NCBI GenBank assembly: GCA_025359185.1
Contig: JANYHF010000085.1
Location: 28,620 to 92,619 of the forward strand
Length of the DNA: 64,000 nucleotides
Direction of reading: 5' to 3'
DNA from: Hyphomicrobiaceae bacterium
GTDB lineage: Bacteria; Pseudomonadota; Alphaproteobacteria; Rhizobiales; Hyphomicrobiaceae
Below are positions 35,070 to 41,186 of this stretch, piece after piece; within the stretch, counting starts at the first letter, position 1, and each line of letters begins with the position of its first letter. A model generated the notes under the pieces. That model ran no database searches, was not told the origin of the DNA, and saw nothing but the letters and a program-made list of their open reading frames with translations. The translations under genes and the position numbers were made by a program.

Positions 35070-36854
35070 CTACCAGCCCGCCGCACCATAGACTGGTGTC
35101 GCGATGCTCTCCATCCGCGCCTTGATCTGCAACGCCACATACAGCGAATAATGCCGGGACAATGCCAGATTGCCGCCATGCAACCACAAGGCTTCTTGCG
35201 CCAGCGGCTTCCACATATTGCGCAGTTCGCCCTGCCACGGCCCCGGATCGCCGGCAAAGCCCGATCCATAACCCCAATTGGCTCCGATCCTGTCGGCCAC
35301 CTCCCGCGAGATGATCCCGGCCACCCACTCGTTCATCGGCCGGTAGCCGGTGGCATAGACTATCACGTCAGCGCTGTGTTCCTCGCCATTCGACAGCAGC
35401 ACCGAGCGGGGCCGCACCTCGCTCACCTCGACGCCGCTGCGCACCTCGACATGCCCACGCGCGATCAGCTCCGAGCACCCCACATCGATGTAATAGCCCG
35501 AGCCGGTCCGCAGCGCCTTCATCATCAGGCCCGATTCATCTTGCCCGTAATCGGTCTGGAACCCGGCGCTGTTCAACCGGCCGATGAGATCGGCGTCGCG
35601 CTCTGCAATCGCTATGTAAAGCGTGCGCTGGGCATCCGCCATCAGACGGAATGGCATCGAGGCAAAGATGAGATCGGCGGTCTCCGTTGTTATCCCCGCG
35701 TTCACGGCCGCGTCGGAATAGAGGCCCGCAAACCCCAGGTCCATCAGCGTTTCCGACCGCACCACCGTCGTTGGCGAGCGCTGGATCATGGTGACGTTAG
35801 CGCCATTCTCCCAGAAATCGGCACACATGTCGTGCCCAGAGCTGTTGGCCCCGATGACGATGGCCTTGCACCCCGCAAAGCGCGCCGCCGACGTGTGCCG
35901 GCTCGAATGGTACTGCTCGCCGGTGAAACTCGCTTGGCCCTTGATCGTAATCTCGCGCGGCGGCCCGTAGGAGCCGGTAGCAAACACGAGTTGCTTAGGC
36001 CTCAGAACCACGTCCTGCCCCTCACGCCGCGCCGTCACCGTCCACGTCTTGCTGGCGCCATCGAAGGCAGCACCGGTACAGGATGTCGAGCCCCAGACGT
36101 TCAGCTCCATCAGCTTGGCGTAGCATTCCAGCCAATCGCCCATCTTGTCCTTGGGGGTGAACACCGGCCAATGCTCCGGGAACGGCAGATAGGGCAGGTG
36201 GTCGTACCAGACCGGATCATGCAGCACGAGCGACTTGTAGCGATTGCGCCAGGAATCTCCGGCGCGCGGACTCTTTTCCAGGATGAGCGCAGGCACACCC
36301 AGCCGCTTCAACCGGGCCCCAAGCGCCAGCCCGCCCTGGCCGCCGCCGATGATCACGCAATAGGGTTGCTGCGTCACGCCGAGTTCCGCCTCGTCCTGCG
36401 TGCGCTGCTCAGCCCAAGTCCGGCGGTTCTGGCGCGCGCCATGGGCAACCCCTTGCTCCCGCGACACTCCCGTCTGCTCTTCGTGCCCTTTCAGTTCCAG
36501 GATCGTGGTCAGCAGCGTAAAGGCCTTTCCGTCTTTCAGCCGCAGATGGCCTTTGCCACGCGCAACTCTGGTCTCAAACCTGAACCAGGCCGCGAGGATG
36601 CCATCGTCAAGCCGGGCCTCGCCTTCGATTCGGAACTGCGACGGCCCAACGGCCGCCAACTGATGGCCGAGCATGTCCGCGATGCCGGCCTCTCCCTCCA
36701 TCGTCTTGATGGTCCAGGTGAACGACACGAGGTCGCGCCAGAAGCATTCGGGGCCAAACAATCGGGTGACGGTCTTGATGTCGCCTGACGAGAGCGCCTG
36801 CTCAAAGGCCTGCAACCATGATACGGCGGTTTCGGTGGTGGATGGTGCTGGCAT
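35070..36854 (-). CDS. NTF2-like plus flavin-containing monooxygenase fusion
   Basis: A 594-residue protein in two parts. Residues 1-about 125 look like an NTF2/SnoaL-type domain (AFEQALSSGDIKTVTRLFG, then CFWRDLVSFTW). A linker follows, then a flavin-containing monooxygenase of the YUCCA/Baeyer-Villiger group with FAD motif CVIIGGGQGGLALGARL (from about 166), NADPH motif AIVIGANSSGHDM and the FMO-identifying IVYATGYRP. It begins 27 nt after the DUF3307 gene stop on the same strand, so it may share the satD-DUF3307 transcript. Substrate unknown. Confidence 0.85.
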   Translation of the reverse strand: MPAPSTTETAVSWLQAFEQALSSGDIKTVTRLFGPECFWRDLVSFTWTIKTMEGEAGIADMLGHQLAAVGPSQFRIEGEARLDDGILAAWFRFETRVARGKGHLRLKDGKAFTLLTTILELKGHEEQTGVSREQGVAHGARQNRRTWAEQRTQDEAELGVTQQPYCVIIGGGQGGLALGARLKRLGVPALILEKSPRAGDSWRNRYKSLVLHDPVWYDHLPYLPFPEHWPVFTPKDKMGDWLECYAKLMELNVWGSTSCTGAAFDGASKTWTVTARREGQDVVLRPKQLVFATGSYGPPREITIKGQASFTGEQYHSSRHTSAARFAGCKAIVIGANSSGHDMCADFWENGANVTMIQRSPTTVVRSETLMDLGFAGLYSDAAVNAGITTETADLIFASMPFRLMADAQRTLYIAIAERDADLIGRLNSAGFQTDYGQDESGLMMKALRTGSGYYIDVGCSELIARGHVEVRSGVEVSEVRPRSVLLSNGEEHSADVIVYATGYRPMNEWVAGIISREVADRIGANWGYGSGFAGDPGPWQGELRNMWKPLAQEALWLHGGNLALSRHYSLYVALQIKARMESIATPVYGAAGW

Positions 36855-36881: not shown

Positions 36882-37616
36882 TCATTTTGTCATGACCTGA
36901 GCCCAATGGGTCACCCCGAATTGCGTCAACACCGCGATCAAAAGCCCCCAGCCAAAGCTCATGAACGTGCCGATGATGATATATTCTGTCATCTGCCGTT
37001 GGCTGGGATCCTTCACATCGCCAAAGCGCAGGATGGATTTGGCGGTGATGAGAAAGCCAACGCCCGCCGGCTGCCCGATGAGAATGAGCAGCATTACCAG
37101 CGCGCGCTCCAGGCAGCCGATGGTGAGGCCGCCGCTCTTGAGCCCTTCAATCCCGCCAGCGATTTCCGAGGTGAACCCGCTGGTGGCCTTGCGGATCAGA
37201 ATGGCGCCCATCGTCAGCGAGGCCATCAGCCCGCTGAGCAAACTGAGGCCAACGCAATAGGCGCCAAGCCAGCCAGACGGCAAATGACTGAGCCAGCCTT
37301 GCGCCACCGTTTGGGGAAAGGCCGCCGCCAACCCGCCGAGCACAGCCAGATGGACAGACTGATCCAACGCGAAGGACCGCACCGTGTCCTTGAGCAGATG
37401 GCTCTTGATGGCATCCATGGCAAAATGGGCCGCCATCAGGATCAGCATCAGCAAAACCGGGCAGGCACCGGTCACCACAATCGCCAGCATCCCCACGCGG
37501 ATCACGTGCAGCCCAAGAACCCTGGGATCGCGTTTGTTCTGGACCATCCAAAGCGGCTGAAACTGAAAATCGGCCAACAGATGCGCTGTCAGCAGTGCTA
37601 TGAAGGTCTCGCTCAT
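36882..37616 (-). CDS. DUF3307 membrane protein
   Basis: Integral membrane protein of 244 residues with about six predicted helices. The N-terminal LLTAHLLADFQFQPLWMVQNK is the DUF3307 hallmark (aqueous H/D/F positions in the first helix), followed by MLILMAAHFAMDAIKSH. Helices then cover about 89-130 and 160-235. DUF3307 genes are often beside satD, as here, but the function is unknown. A 20-bp palindrome lies 29-48 nt upstream of its start, related to the one before satD. Confidence 0.8.
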   Translation of the reverse strand: MSETFIALLTAHLLADFQFQPLWMVQNKRDPRVLGLHVIRVGMLAIVVTGACPVLLMLILMAAHFAMDAIKSHLLKDTVRSFALDQSVHLAVLGGLAAAFPQTVAQGWLSHLPSGWLGAYCVGLSLLSGLMASLTMGAILIRKATSGFTSEIAGGIEGLKSGGLTIGCLERALVMLLILIGQPAGVGFLITAKSILRFGDVKDPSQRQMTEYIIIGTFMSFGWGLLIAVLTQFGVTHWAQVMTK

Positions 37617-37644: not shown

Positions 37645-37664
37645 GACAGCTTATTACGCCTGTC
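37645..37664. promoter_or_regulatory. palindromic operator upstream of the DUF3307 gene
   Basis: GACAGCTTATTACGCCTGTC is an imperfect palindrome. Its reverse complement matches the site upstream of satD at 16 of 20 positions, with both GACAG/CTGTC outer half-sites kept. It sits 29-48 nt before the DUF3307 start codon on the minus strand. A further half-site (GACAGGCTAATA on the minus strand) overlaps the satD 3' end. Confidence 0.6.
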
Positions 37665-37682
37665 TTGACTCCAACAGCCGTA

Positions 37683-38393
37683 TTAGCCTGTCTCGCCATC
37701 TGTCCCCGCGCCACCAATCGCCTGCCAGTCCATGGTCTCAAACGCCCTGATCGGCTCCAACAGTGTACGCCAGTTGGCCCCCTTCAGAGAATCGGTGACT
37801 GTCTGCTTGGTTACAGACGGGCTGAGCGCCGCCGCGATCCGCTCATGCGTCGGGGTGTCGAGCGTCAAGGCACAGGCGAAGATCTCGGCCTGACGCTGGG
37901 TCCAGGAGCGGACCAGCCCGCTGCTGAGATGAACGGCCACCTGAACCCATTGCGCGAGGGCCCCCGCGCGCGCCGGCAAGGCGGCGGTCAGCTCGAAGTA
38001 ACCGGTCAGATGGTCGAGCGCATGGCCCGAGAGGGTGAACGCCTCGCCGGTTGAGAGCGACAGTCGCGTTGGGTTGATAAGATCAACCGTACCAATCCCG
38101 ATGGCGATCCGCGTATCGAGATCAAGCTCACCGCGGAGCGTCGCGCGGATCAGCAGCGCCACCCGCAGTGCGAGACGCGGGTCCGCCAGCAGCAGCTGCC
38201 AGGCGTCACCGCGAAAGAAATCGGGTTTTCCCGGGACGATGCCGGGGTGCGCTTGCTCGAACCTGGCCGTCACCTGGAGGACCAACTGCCGGGCCGCCAA
38301 AAGTTGTTTCGGCTCCAGTTCTGTCGAACCGATGAGATCGCCGGTGAGGACGGCGGCGACGGCATCCGGGCGCAATGTGAGGTATCTGGTCAA
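37683..38393 (-). CDS. SatD-family protein: cyclase-like domain plus predicted HTH
   Basis: A 236-residue SatD-family protein. Residues 11-130 run in the order of a class III nucleotidyl cyclase core: VAAVLTGDLIGST (Asp19), KPDFFRGDAWQLLL (Asp63), RIAIGIGTVD and FTLSGHALDHL, so both metal-site Asp positions appear kept although flanks are degenerate. Residues 166-212 (RQAEIFACALTLDTPTHERI, then SVTKQTVTDSLKGANW) look like a helix-turn-helix. I infer a transcription regulator with a ligand- or nucleotide-sensing domain acting on the paired palindromes. It is upstream of DUF3307 on the same strand with a 66-bp gap. Confidence 0.75.
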   Translation of the reverse strand: MTRYLTLRPDAVAAVLTGDLIGSTELEPKQLLAARQLVLQVTARFEQAHPGIVPGKPDFFRGDAWQLLLADPRLALRVALLIRATLRGELDLDTRIAIGIGTVDLINPTRLSLSTGEAFTLSGHALDHLTGYFELTAALPARAGALAQWVQVAVHLSSGLVRSWTQRQAEIFACALTLDTPTHERIAAALSPSVTKQTVTDSLKGANWRTLLEPIRAFETMDWQAIGGAGTDGETG

Positions 38394-38419
38394 GTTGGCG
38401 CCTCAGATCAGCTGAAGTT

Positions 38420-38439
38420 GACAGGCGAATAAACCTGTC
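38420..38439. promoter_or_regulatory. palindromic operator upstream of satD
   Basis: GACAGGCGAATAAACCTGTC has 6-bp inverted half-sites (GACAGG/CCTGTC) and an 8-bp spacer, and sits 27-46 nt before the satD start on the minus strand. The almost identical distance to the related palindrome before the DUF3307 gene suggests one dimeric regulator controls both promoters, SatD itself being the obvious candidate. Confidence 0.6.
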
Positions 38440-38726
38440 TAGCTTACGACAGCCTCTATTGGCAGTCAACAGCGATTTGCTGATCCAGTCAGATCCCACC
38501 TGACAGGCGCCAGACCACTTGCCCCTTCGCGATGCAACCCAGCACCGGTGCAGTCCGCTGGCGCCAAGACGGCCTTGCCTCAGATACGAGCGTCTTAGAA
38601 TTGAAAGTGGAACACGGTGTCGAGGTTCGAACGAGATGCGGCTGACGTGTGGCTAATCTAAGTATTTCGGGATAGAGTAAAACCAGCGGCAAGCTAGAAG
38701 GGTGTCATACGGTTCACGAACGTTCG
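38440..38726. other. non-coding stretch between the satD promoter and the IS1595 element
   Basis: No gene is recognised. The minus-strand ORF 38489-38692 resembles nothing I know. A GGTTCGAAC string near 38626 does not sit in a tRNA-like T-arm. A further GACAGG half-site (TGACAGGCGC, near 38501-38510) is present. This could be remnant sequence disturbed by the element insertion. Confidence 0.4.
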
Positions 38727-38751
38727 GGGAACTATGCACTTGACTGAACAG
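38727..38751 (+). repeat. left terminal inverted repeat of the IS1595 element
   Basis: Begins GGGAACTATGCACTTGACTG and ends AACAG; the reverse complement of the right end differs at one base only (C versus T at position 6). Confidence 0.88.
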
Positions 38752-38758
38752 GTGGCCT

Positions 38759-38959
38759 ATGGCAAATGAGCAGGGACAGGCCGACGCGATTATGATCATC
38801 ACACCCGAGATGATCGCCGCTGGGTTGGAAGCTATGGTGGGGTATGATCCGGGCTGGGATAATGACAGCCATCTCGTCATAGATATTTACATTGCAATGG
38901 CGGCTAGGGCGTGCCGCCAGGCATCAGCAACTTGTGCACGTAGTTCTTGTGATCGTTGA
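38759..38959 (+). CDS. small hypothetical protein (IS passenger)
   Basis: A 66-residue ORF whose first part, IMIITPEMIAAGLEAMVGYD followed by PGWDNDSHLVIDIYIAMA, looks like small proteins found in phages and mobile elements of Rhizobiales. It starts 8 nt inside the left terminal repeat. Its last part overlaps the 3' end of the opposite-strand 167-codon ORF and is cysteine/serine-rich, so the original C-terminus may be altered. Function unknown. Confidence 0.5.
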   Translation: MANEQGQADAIMIITPEMIAAGLEAMVGYDPGWDNDSHLVIDIYIAMAARACRQASATCARSSCDR

Positions 38960-39407
38960 AGGCGGCTAGCTTGCGAGCCGCATCCTGGACAGCGGTTCGC
39001 GTCGCCGCGATCTTCTCTGCGAAAATGGGGACAGGTTTGCCAGCGCCCTTGCCTCTATAGACGATCGACATGATATTGAATTCCGGTCCCTTGGCAACTA
39101 CTAGCCCGTGGATATAGAGATTGCGGTCAGCGGTTAGCTGGCCCATCTTCTCTTTGATCTTACCGAGCGTATTGCGATATGATGGATTCAGATGTTCCGT
39201 TGCAATTTGGGCCAGCAACTCCCAGCGTCCGCGCATATCCAGTTTGTAGGTGATGTGCTGGCCGACGTCGATGCCTATTCGCAAAAGGCCCCAGATTGTT
39301 CTCTCTACTTCGTATTCAAGAAAGGACCAAGCGCAGCATAAGCGGCCAATTTCGATCATCAATTCGTCTGATACGGGCGGCGGTAGTGTCGGTACGGTCT
39401 GAGCCAT
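38904..39407 (-). CDS. hypothetical protein (IS passenger)
   Basis: A 167-residue soluble protein of unknown function. It is helical with a CCAWSFLEYEVERTIWGLLR motif near residue 24 and TADRNLYIHGLVVA near residue 92, a layout shared by small hypothetical proteins in mobile regions (a HEPN-like N-terminal pair of helices is conceivable from RNLYIHG, but I cannot confirm it). It lies between the small plus-strand ORFs inside the IS1595 element. Confidence 0.6.
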   Translation of the reverse strand: MAQTVPTLPPPVSDELMIEIGRLCCAWSFLEYEVERTIWGLLRIGIDVGQHITYKLDMRGRWELLAQIATEHLNPSYRNTLGKIKEKMGQLTADRNLYIHGLVVAKGPEFNIMSIVYRGKGAGKPVPIFAEKIAATRTAVQDAARKLAAFNDHKNYVHKLLMPGGTP

Positions 39408-39431
39408 GAACGTAATTCCCTGGAGCGAATG

Positions 39432-39584
39432 ATGCCCAAAAACACACAGCTAAAGGATGAGCCCGGCGCGGAGGATCGTTTCTTTAAGGGCGTCCGGAAG
39501 GCGATGACGATGCCGCCGAAACCGCAAAAGGACGATGTCAAGCCAAGCAAAGGCAAATCCCAAAATGGGAGTGCAAAATCTTGA
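39432..39584 (+). CDS. 50-residue passenger protein, too short for the ORF track
   Basis: ATG 39432 to TGA 39584 encodes a lysine- and proline-rich 50-residue protein starting MPKNTQLKDEPGAEDRFFKG and containing MPPKPQKDD. I recognise the DEPGAE-RF-KG-RKA pattern as a small family recurring in Rhizobiales mobile regions. The codons are well formed and the gene lies between two longer passenger genes. It is strongly polar, with no domain, so a DNA- or protein-binding peptide is only a guess. Confidence 0.65.
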   Translation: MPKNTQLKDEPGAEDRFFKGVRKAMTMPPKPQKDDVKPSKGKSQNGSAKS

Positions 39585-39620
39585 CCGACATCGTCAAAAG
39601 CGGAAGCGGCGGCGGCAACG

Positions 39621-40001
39621 CTAATTCGCCTTACTTAGTGGTGGTGAGTGGGGCCGGATCGCCACCTGAGTTTGAAGTATGCGGCCTAGTTTCTCAGCTT
39701 CGTGAGGTGGCAGCAAATAGTGAAGCCAGCCGAATCTCGGGTCTCGAAGATGCAAAAGACTGTGACCTTGCATCATATCCGGCTCTGTCGCCCATACTGG
39801 ATCGGGGACGGCCCCGACCTTCTGTCCCGTCGCGAAAACGCGGCCAAACTCCGGCATCATCGAAGCTCGAAATTCTCCAAGATGCAGCAAAAGATCGTCC
39901 ACGCCCGCAGCGTCGAGCTGCAAGGCAACGGGCGGGTTTGTCGGGAAAGTGACGGTAACTGTCTTGAGGTCGTCCTCAAGCTTCCAATTTAGACCGTCCA
40001 T
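39621..40001 (-). CDS. hypothetical protein (IS passenger)
   Basis: A 126-residue protein starting MDGLNWKLEDDLKTVTVTFP and containing the segments VALQLDAAGVDDLLLHLGEF, RASMMPEF and GHSLLHLRDPRFGWLHYLLP. The beta-rich N-terminal half followed by a conserved RDPRFGWLHY block is familiar from uncharacterised proteins carried on mobile elements in Rhizobiales. No catalytic motif. It is 180 nt downstream of the transposase stop on the same strand, with a hairpin between. Confidence 0.65.
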   Translation of the reverse strand: MDGLNWKLEDDLKTVTVTFPTNPPVALQLDAAGVDDLLLHLGEFRASMMPEFGRVFATGQKVGAVPDPVWATEPDMMQGHSLLHLRDPRFGWLHYLLPPHEAEKLGRILQTQVAIRPHSPPLSKAN

Positions 40002-40101
40002 GACGGCTCCTTTCTATCGAAGGATGGAACCGGGCGCTTGACGCGGAGTCGCGAGTCTGTAATTTAGAAGTGCTATCGAGTGGGTAATGCGAGACGCAAA
40101 C

Positions 40102-40140
40102 AGGGGTTGACGTTTGCTGCGTCAACCCCTTCTCTTTTTT
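40102..40140 (+). terminator. strong intrinsic terminator inside the IS element
   Basis: AGGGGTTGACG (40102-40112) pairs perfectly with CGTCAACCCCT (40120-40130) around a 7-nt loop and is followed by TTCTCTTTTTT. The orientation stops plus-strand transcription just before the antisense side of the transposase gene. The only plus-strand gene upstream inside the element is the 50-residue ORF ending at 39584. Confidence 0.85.
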
Positions 40141-40179
40141 CTGATTCTCCCTTCATAGTCCAGCGTTCGCGCCCTGTTC

Positions 40180-41124
40180 TTACGACGCCGTTTCGCGATC
40201 AGGCCGTCGATAGGTCAGGCGCTTGCCGTCGGCGCCCTTGATTGCTGCATTCGCGCGCATCGTGTCGTCGATCCCAAGCTTGATACGGTTGTTCCACTTG
40301 AACGCGGCCTCATCGACATATCGTTGCAGGTGCTGCTCGCTGACGGCGTGGAAGCTGCCGTAGACGCCGCGCTTCAGCAGGGCAAAGAAGCTTTCGACCG
40401 ACTGCGTATGCGTCTTGCCGTCGTCCTTCACGTATTCGCCGGCCGCGTGGTTGACCATGGCATAGTCGGAGAAGTCCTGGCCGGGCGCTACGTTCGCCGA
40501 AGCGGCGTCGGTGTTGAGGATGGAGCTTAGGTCGGCCTTAGCGGTTTGGATCGTCTCGCGAAGCGTCTTTGCCGTCACGTTGGCGATGTGCTTGGCGCGA
40601 ACTTCGCCATCGCGCTCAACCAGCGCATGCACGGCGTGCTTCTTCGGGATCGGCTTGGACCTATGCGCGTTCTTGGCCTTGCCGCCGACGTAGGTTTCGT
40701 CGCTTTCCAGCGTCTTGCCTTCGCCGCCAATCGGGCCGGCCACATCCATATCCGGCGCCATCGCCTCGCGTATGCGCATCGCCATAATCCATGCCGTGCG
40801 ATAAGAGCCGGTGCCGAGCATGCGATGCAACTGATGCGCCGACACGCCTTTCTTGCTTGAGGCCATAATCCGAAAGGCCAGCGCCCACTTGTGCAACGGA
40901 ACGTGGCTGCGCTCCATAACGGTGCCGACGCGGACGGTGAATTTGTCTCGGCATGCGCCGCAATGGAACCAGCCCGGTCCCATGGACTTGCCGGCAAGTG
41001 GCTTCACAGCCTCAGGATTGCCGCAGAAGGGGCAGATAGGCCCGTTCAGCCAACGCTGTTCCTCAAAGAACGCGCGGGCTTTCTCCTCGTCATGAAAGAT
41101 AGCGTTCGTGAGATCGATGGCCAT
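40180..41124 (-). CDS. IS1595-family (ISXO2-like) transposase
   Basis: Transposase of 314 residues. An N-terminal zinc ribbon (Cys31, Cys34, Cys55, Cys58 in CPFC and CGAC) precedes the ISXO2 domain with ESDETYVGGKAKN (first Asp), SILNTDAASAN (second Asp) and the TQSVESFFALLKRGVYG motif with the acidic third residue. Full-length for the family and without internal stops, so the element may be active. It is read from near the right terminal repeat inward. Confidence 0.93.
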   Translation of the reverse strand: MAIDLTNAIFHDEEKARAFFEEQRWLNGPICPFCGNPEAVKPLAGKSMGPGWFHCGACRDKFTVRVGTVMERSHVPLHKWALAFRIMASSKKGVSAHQLHRMLGTGSYRTAWIMAMRIREAMAPDMDVAGPIGGEGKTLESDETYVGGKAKNAHRSKPIPKKHAVHALVERDGEVRAKHIANVTAKTLRETIQTAKADLSSILNTDAASANVAPGQDFSDYAMVNHAAGEYVKDDGKTHTQSVESFFALLKRGVYGSFHAVSEQHLQRYVDEAAFKWNNRIKLGIDDTMRANAAIKGADGKRLTYRRPDRETAS

Positions 41125-41161
41125 GGGAATTCCTCCATGACCAGAAGATAGACCCTCGGAA

Positions 41162-41186
41162 CTGTTCAGTCAAGTGCATAATTCCC
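41162..41186 (-). repeat. right terminal inverted repeat of the IS1595 element
   Basis: Read on the minus strand it begins GGGAATTATGCACTTGACTG, matching the left end at 24 of 25 positions. It lies 37 nt upstream of the transposase start. Confidence 0.88.

Follow-up and report, generated by a model that had tools for sequence, protein, structure and literature searches.

What do two neighbouring genes of uncharacterised families do together, and which protein reads the similar palindromes in front of them? The satD-DUF3307 locus of the window, that is, of the whole 64,000-nucleotide stretch of DNA analysed here, raises this question. Both genes are on the minus strand, with a gap of 66 nt from satD to DUF3307. 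The satD-like gene (37683..38393, minus), defined by its open reading frame and a structure model, starts with TTG 38393, although a second TTG, 38375, may be the true start. It encodes 236 amino acids, with an N-terminal class III cyclase/palm-fold domain (about residues 8-140), a linker helix and a C-terminal helix-turn-helix (HTH, about residues 166-205). The DUF3307 gene (36882..37616, minus) encodes a membrane protein of 244 amino acids, which is a clear PF11750 match (50.2 bits; Pfam gathering cut-off 23) and has a conserved C-terminal block, AAKSxLRF...EYxIIGT. The SatD-like protein of the window has no Pfam or NCBIfam match of its own and does not reach the gathering score of PF16264, which has zero matches in the window genome, so the SatD name rests on more distant homology. 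Searches for PF16264 among the relatives were empty because the Pfam model is too narrow; sub-threshold matches (E 2.5e-5 to 4e-4) occur in three relatives, and the window protein would be distant kin of PF16264 at best. Just upstream of the satD operator, an insertion element (38727-41186) is bounded by 25-bp inverted repeats (38727-38751 and 41162-41186) that are 96% complementary; it holds an IS1595-family transposase (40180-41124) and two small passenger genes (38904-39407 and 39621-40001) without family matches.

Beyond the window, SatD was found in 68/295 genomes of an alphaproteobacterial family (f64; Rhodobacteraceae-like by gene content), and DUF3307 adjoins satD at all loci that are not truncated by the end of a contig. 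The pair is also carried on plasmids down to 3.8 kb, and its neighbours sometimes include HEPN, HipA, RelE or Pycsar-like genes. On E. coli pEC34A (3,770 bp; L041) and K. pneumoniae INF049 plasmid 5 (4,424 bp; L087), the satD-like gene and DUF3307 are the main cargo; DNA of the pEC34A-type pair was absent among the complete E. coli genomes searched. On the Sphingomonas insulae plasmid NZ_CP048421 (L010 5578-8443), a cyclase, an E2-associated Cys-rich protein and a 'Pycsar system effector' occur together; this Pycsar-type cluster is convergent to the satD-DUF3307 pair, and a TIR protein is encoded nearby. No relative of SatD or DUF3307 turned up in phage records or IMG/VR, which gives a phage origin no support. 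With PADLOC models, neither satD and DUF3307 nor two neighbouring genes had a family match at E<=1.

For DUF3307, the structure model (pLDDT 73) had no counterpart among solved folds and so gave no clue to a biochemical function; the absent match does not make the fold new. The C-terminal block is found in all full-length SatD-paired DUF3307 proteins, strictly in 65 and as a slight variant in 2, the other 3/70 being cut short. Full-length DUF3307 orphans without satD (L137, L138 and L153) have lost it in 3/3. Of the accessory genes of S. pyogenes, only satD, which 178/249 genomes carry, proved essential in all strains tested (PMC11323703); this satD belongs to the more distant Pfam family, and polar effects are a possible cause of its essentiality. 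Together, the essentiality in S. pyogenes, the pattern of the C-terminal block and the plasmid carriage suggest that DUF3307 is harmful unless restrained, a reading for which we see the odds as even.

Alternatively, DUF3307 might be benign and conditionally needed, for example in the envelope or in iron-sulphur or metal homeostasis, with SatD as an ordinary one-component regulator within the same DNA-binding circuit. Such a role would suit the fixed place of the pair in the f64 family, where it lies between sufT-like and sufA-like genes in 53/62 loci, unlike a roaming toxin-antitoxin module. In satD-less genomes (L088-L099), sufT and sufA are within about 120 bp of each other in 7/12, other sequence separates them in 3/12, and no sufA was seen on the stretch examined in 2/12; the spot is often empty or taken up by unrelated genes. 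Such a pattern is consistent with the pair being gained and lost at a single site, or with a connection to Fe-S biology. A benign DUF3307 would also agree with a short subfamily of about 130-200 aa, comprising the N-terminal half only, which is common without SatD and without operators (L139-L152, L154), and with the satD name itself, which stands for secretion and acid tolerance D and comes from S. mutans (as told in PMC11323703). However, the satD of S. pyogenes is essential in the strains that carry it, the pair travels on plasmids, partly among toxin-antitoxin or defence genes, and the full-length orphans examined lack the conserved block, so that we regard a benign DUF3307 as rather unlikely.

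For SatD, the best Foldseek matches of the model were class III cyclases (E 4.6e-4; VIA-align Z about 9), with a cUMP synthase among the structural matches, and its N-terminal domain also matched GGDEF domains and the Cas10 palm. The first and second metal-site Asp, D19 (codon 38337..38339, minus) and D63 (codon 38205..38207, minus), are invariant in 70/70 homologues. Sequence and model therefore bear out what a preliminary description of this DNA had proposed, namely the order of a class III cyclase core with both Asp and a C-terminal HTH; the structure prediction suggested there as a check returned both the cyclase-like core and the HTH. At the position of the catalytic Asn (127), homologues have D (54) or E (11), and the Arg position (131) is variable, both positions having been placed by motif rather than by residue-level structural alignment. 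As the metal Asp are kept and the catalytic Asn and Arg are not, the palm would sense a nucleotide-metal ligand rather than synthesise a cyclic nucleotide, and nucleotide sensing is its fairly probable function. SatD could instead work as a cyclase, with a product that opens or activates DUF3307 in a Pycsar-like manner, the HTH adding autoregulation. The palm fold with both metal Asp and the match to cUMP synthase would allow for this, yet the loss of the expected catalytic residues, the missing PADLOC match and the sister locus beside a real Pycsar-type cluster, which has its own cyclase, make an active SatD cyclase improbable.

We then turn to the palindromes. In front of satD, the proximal palindrome GACAGGCGAATAAACCTGTC (38420..38439) lies 27-46 nt before TTG 38393, exactly where it had been described, and a distal palindrome GACAGCCTCTATTGGCAGTC (38448..38467) lies 28 bp farther upstream. 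In front of DUF3307, the proximal palindrome GACAGCTTATTACGCCTGTC (37645..37664), 29-48 nt before the start at 37616, is indeed 16/20 identical to the satD copy when read on the coding strand; its distal partner AACAGCCGTATTAGCCTGTC (37673..37692), again 28 bp farther upstream, overlaps the satD stop. The second palindrome of each promoter (37673-37692 and 38448-38467) had been overlooked in the preliminary description. Both genes thus have tandem palindromes of the GACAG-N10-CTGTC type, exactly 28 bp apart and at nearly equal distance from the gene. In the window, a single palindrome with 2 mismatches was not significant (5 found versus 2.5 expected); the tandem pattern with <=3 mismatches was found 2 times versus 0.13 expected. 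The regulon of the whole 4.04-Mb genome was examined by pattern search, and with <=2 mismatches the tandem pattern occurred at these two places only (reversed-pattern control, 1). By eye, a TTGACT-N17-TAAGCT element spans the distal satD palindrome of the window and the spacer behind it.

As the pair is absent from close relatives in the window's own family, operator conservation was tested on distant homologues. Contigs labelled KSB1, Chitinivibrionales, an alphaproteobacterium and Phycisphaerae yielded SatD homologues of 43-46% identity. At these loci DUF3307 is the next gene in 4/4, tandem palindromes lie between the genes, and the half-sites (ACAACC, ATAGCC) differ from those of the window. 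Operators were then scored blindly as a pair of 18-bp palindromes set 27-30 bp apart whose four half-sites agree (maximum 24). A score >=20 was reached in 70/75 satD-DUF3307 loci from several bacterial phyla and in 18/594 controls, and a score >=22 in 52/108 operator windows (38/75 upstream of satD, 14/33 upstream of DUF3307) versus 0/594 controls. Palindromes upstream of orthologous pairs, a check named beforehand, are hence present in those 70 loci. The palindromes measure 18-20 bp and the tandem spacing is 28-30 bp, 29 being commonest. Operators stand upstream of satD, of DUF3307 or of both: where there is no room between the genes, the operator precedes satD (41/42), and where there is a gap, it precedes DUF3307 (24/33), often with one before each gene. 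The same arrangement was seen on plasmids of Vibrio, Pseudoalteromonas, Sphingomonas, Agrobacterium and the archaeon Haloplanus; on small enterobacterial plasmids, palindromes were seen by eye, below the threshold of the operator score. As the Haloplanus plasmid (L083 3279-4696) carries the pair with tandem operators of the TTCGCC-N6-GGCGAA type, 29 bp apart, the arrangement spans both prokaryotic domains. Overall, the tandem-operator architecture of satD-DUF3307 is general. The flavin monooxygenase gene directly downstream of DUF3307 in the window (35070-36854; SnoaL-like N-terminal domain) had been considered as a further target of the same control. This idea was not upheld: the gene lacks its own operator, and DUF3307 is followed by a different gene at the other loci examined. 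We rejected it as a part of the module, as it is not found beside the other pairs examined.

Which protein reads the operators was addressed by comparing residues with half-site bases. In 13 loci with both operators, half-sites agree more within than between loci (permutation p = 4e-4). For the residue-base comparison, about 90 SatD versions and majority half-sites were used. When all SatD and DUF3307 columns were scanned for mutual information with half-site bases across all 70 loci, residue 196 with base 1 ranked first, and the leaders also included 201 with base 5, 197 with base 2 and 198 with base 4. As the model places the recognition helix at residues 196-205 (KQTVTDSLKG; 37779..37808, minus), residues 196, 197, 198 and 201 correspond to helix positions 1, 2, 3 and 6. 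Contingency tables, drawn up without 6/70 loci of ambiguous operator register, showed R196 with G1 in 41/42, A1 with K196 in 5/6 and with Q196 in 5/5, P/T/A196 with T1 in 11/11, Q197 with C2 in 56/58, A198 with A4 in 45/47 and K201 with C5 in 15/15. The window half-site A-C-A-G with K196, Q197 and T198 fits this code. Phylogenetically independent pairs were drawn on a tree of the SatD N-terminal domain. Where the residue class differed, the base differed in 7/8 (196), 4/4 (197) and 3/4 (201) of these pairs; where it was the same, the base differed in 1/28, 2/31 and 4/31, respectively. Prediction rules derived from the contingency tables and fixed beforehand were tried on 20 loci from a later phylum-wide search, 15 of them with a scored operator. 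At these unseen 15 loci, 42/48 bases were predicted correctly (shuffled mean 22.2, p = 5e-5), with 13/13 for base 1, 14/15 for base 2 and 7/7 for K201 and C5; the weaker rules gave 6/9 for base 4 and 2/4 for non-K residues at 201. HTH distance (0.21) and DUF3307 distance (0.22) could not be told apart by a partial Mantel test; the column-by-column scan, the independent pairs and the unseen loci did separate them.

The covariation of half-site bases with the recognition helix, together with the test on unseen loci, argues for SatD as a DNA-binding protein, and we are highly confident, from this comparison of sequences, that it binds the tandem operators. The earlier proposal that SatD binds both palindromes thereby gains support from helix and bases alike. 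A regulator specific for the operators of its own promoter, which is a criterion of an autoregulated toxin-antitoxin module, was thus found by computation. Another host regulator might bind the palindromes, with SatD and DUF3307 as its mere targets, but the half-site bases track the SatD helix across phyla and on unseen loci, and the tandem site occurs nowhere else in the window genome, so that such a regulator is very improbable.

In loci of the f64 family, -35/-10-like positions coincide with the right arm of the distal palindrome and with the proximal core; the start codon comes within a few to some tens of bases thereafter. This overlap favours repression, and from the position of its operators SatD is likely to repress rather than activate. 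A role of the palindromes as RNA hairpins, in termination or attenuation, is hardly credible. Any palindrome can fold as RNA, and T-runs stand behind some copies (L007), but the strict 28-30 bp period, the overlap with promoter positions, the mismatched arm positions, none of them G-U in the copies inspected, and the covariation with a DNA-reading helix all speak for DNA sites.

These data suggest a model, to which we assign a probability of roughly 0.55, in which satD and DUF3307 form an autoregulated two-gene module and SatD, a nucleotide-sensing repressor, restrains the membrane effector DUF3307. A SatD dimer would dock its C-terminal HTH on each of the two tandem palindromes, with residues 196, 197, 198 and 201 reading half-site bases 1, 2, 4 and 5 (A-C-A-G in the window). 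The palindromes would overlie the promoter of one gene or of each, and SatD would repress both genes. The N-terminal palm would most likely sense a nucleotide-metal ligand without making a cyclic nucleotide, and ligand binding would release repression, upon which the membrane protein DUF3307 would appear. Most likely, DUF3307 would harm the cell when unrestrained, in which case SatD would act like an antitoxin at the level of transcription. More tentatively, and with the balance leaning against it, the pair could be a guard module of bacteria and archaea, in which a cyclase-fold sensor serves as the transcriptional antitoxin that silences a lethal membrane effector, freed upon a change of the nucleotide pool (for example, phage infection or energy loss), with DNA specificity set by four helix positions in a readable code.

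Among open-licence PubMed Central papers, we found none that describes DNA binding by SatD, its operators or mechanism, or a link to DUF3307; both families are known by name and uncharacterised. A SatD that reads tandem operators at its own locus would provide a concrete mechanism for them, and the residue-by-base recognition code predicts sites in new genomes. The findings may also explain the puzzle of a satD that is accessory yet essential in S. pyogenes (PMC11323703), and they point to a little-known fusion, in which a palm-fold nucleotide-binding domain would be the sensor of a one-component regulator. The reach of satD and DUF3307 extends over many bacteria, 3.8-4.4-kb plasmids of E. coli and Klebsiella and a haloarchaeal plasmid.

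Compared with annotated families, the gene order is that of PF16264 with a DUF3307 (PF11750) partner on annotated plasmids (Haloplanus); PF16264 gives weak matches in several relatives of the window SatD, the window protein and most homologues staying below the cut-off. SatD has the fold and the Asp pair in common with the palm domains of class III cyclases, GGDEF proteins and Cas10. Unlike class III cyclases, it lacks the catalytic Asn and Arg, and its palm is fused to a C-terminal HTH predicted to read operators of its own locus. Pycsar likewise places a cyclase-fold protein beside a membrane protein, and one plasmid locus adjoins a Pycsar-type cluster, whereas satD-DUF3307 has no PADLOC match, and SatD carries an HTH and is devoid of the catalytic Asn and Arg. 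From toxin-antitoxin modules the pair differs in its regulator, which has a palm fold, and in the additional, separate operator that often precedes the partner gene; toxicity and protein-protein neutralisation are putative here. It resembles autoregulated modules of this kind in having two genes with the regulator first, tandem palindromes over the promoter, carriage on plasmids and a regulator that is essential where present, as for satD in S. pyogenes (PMC11323703).
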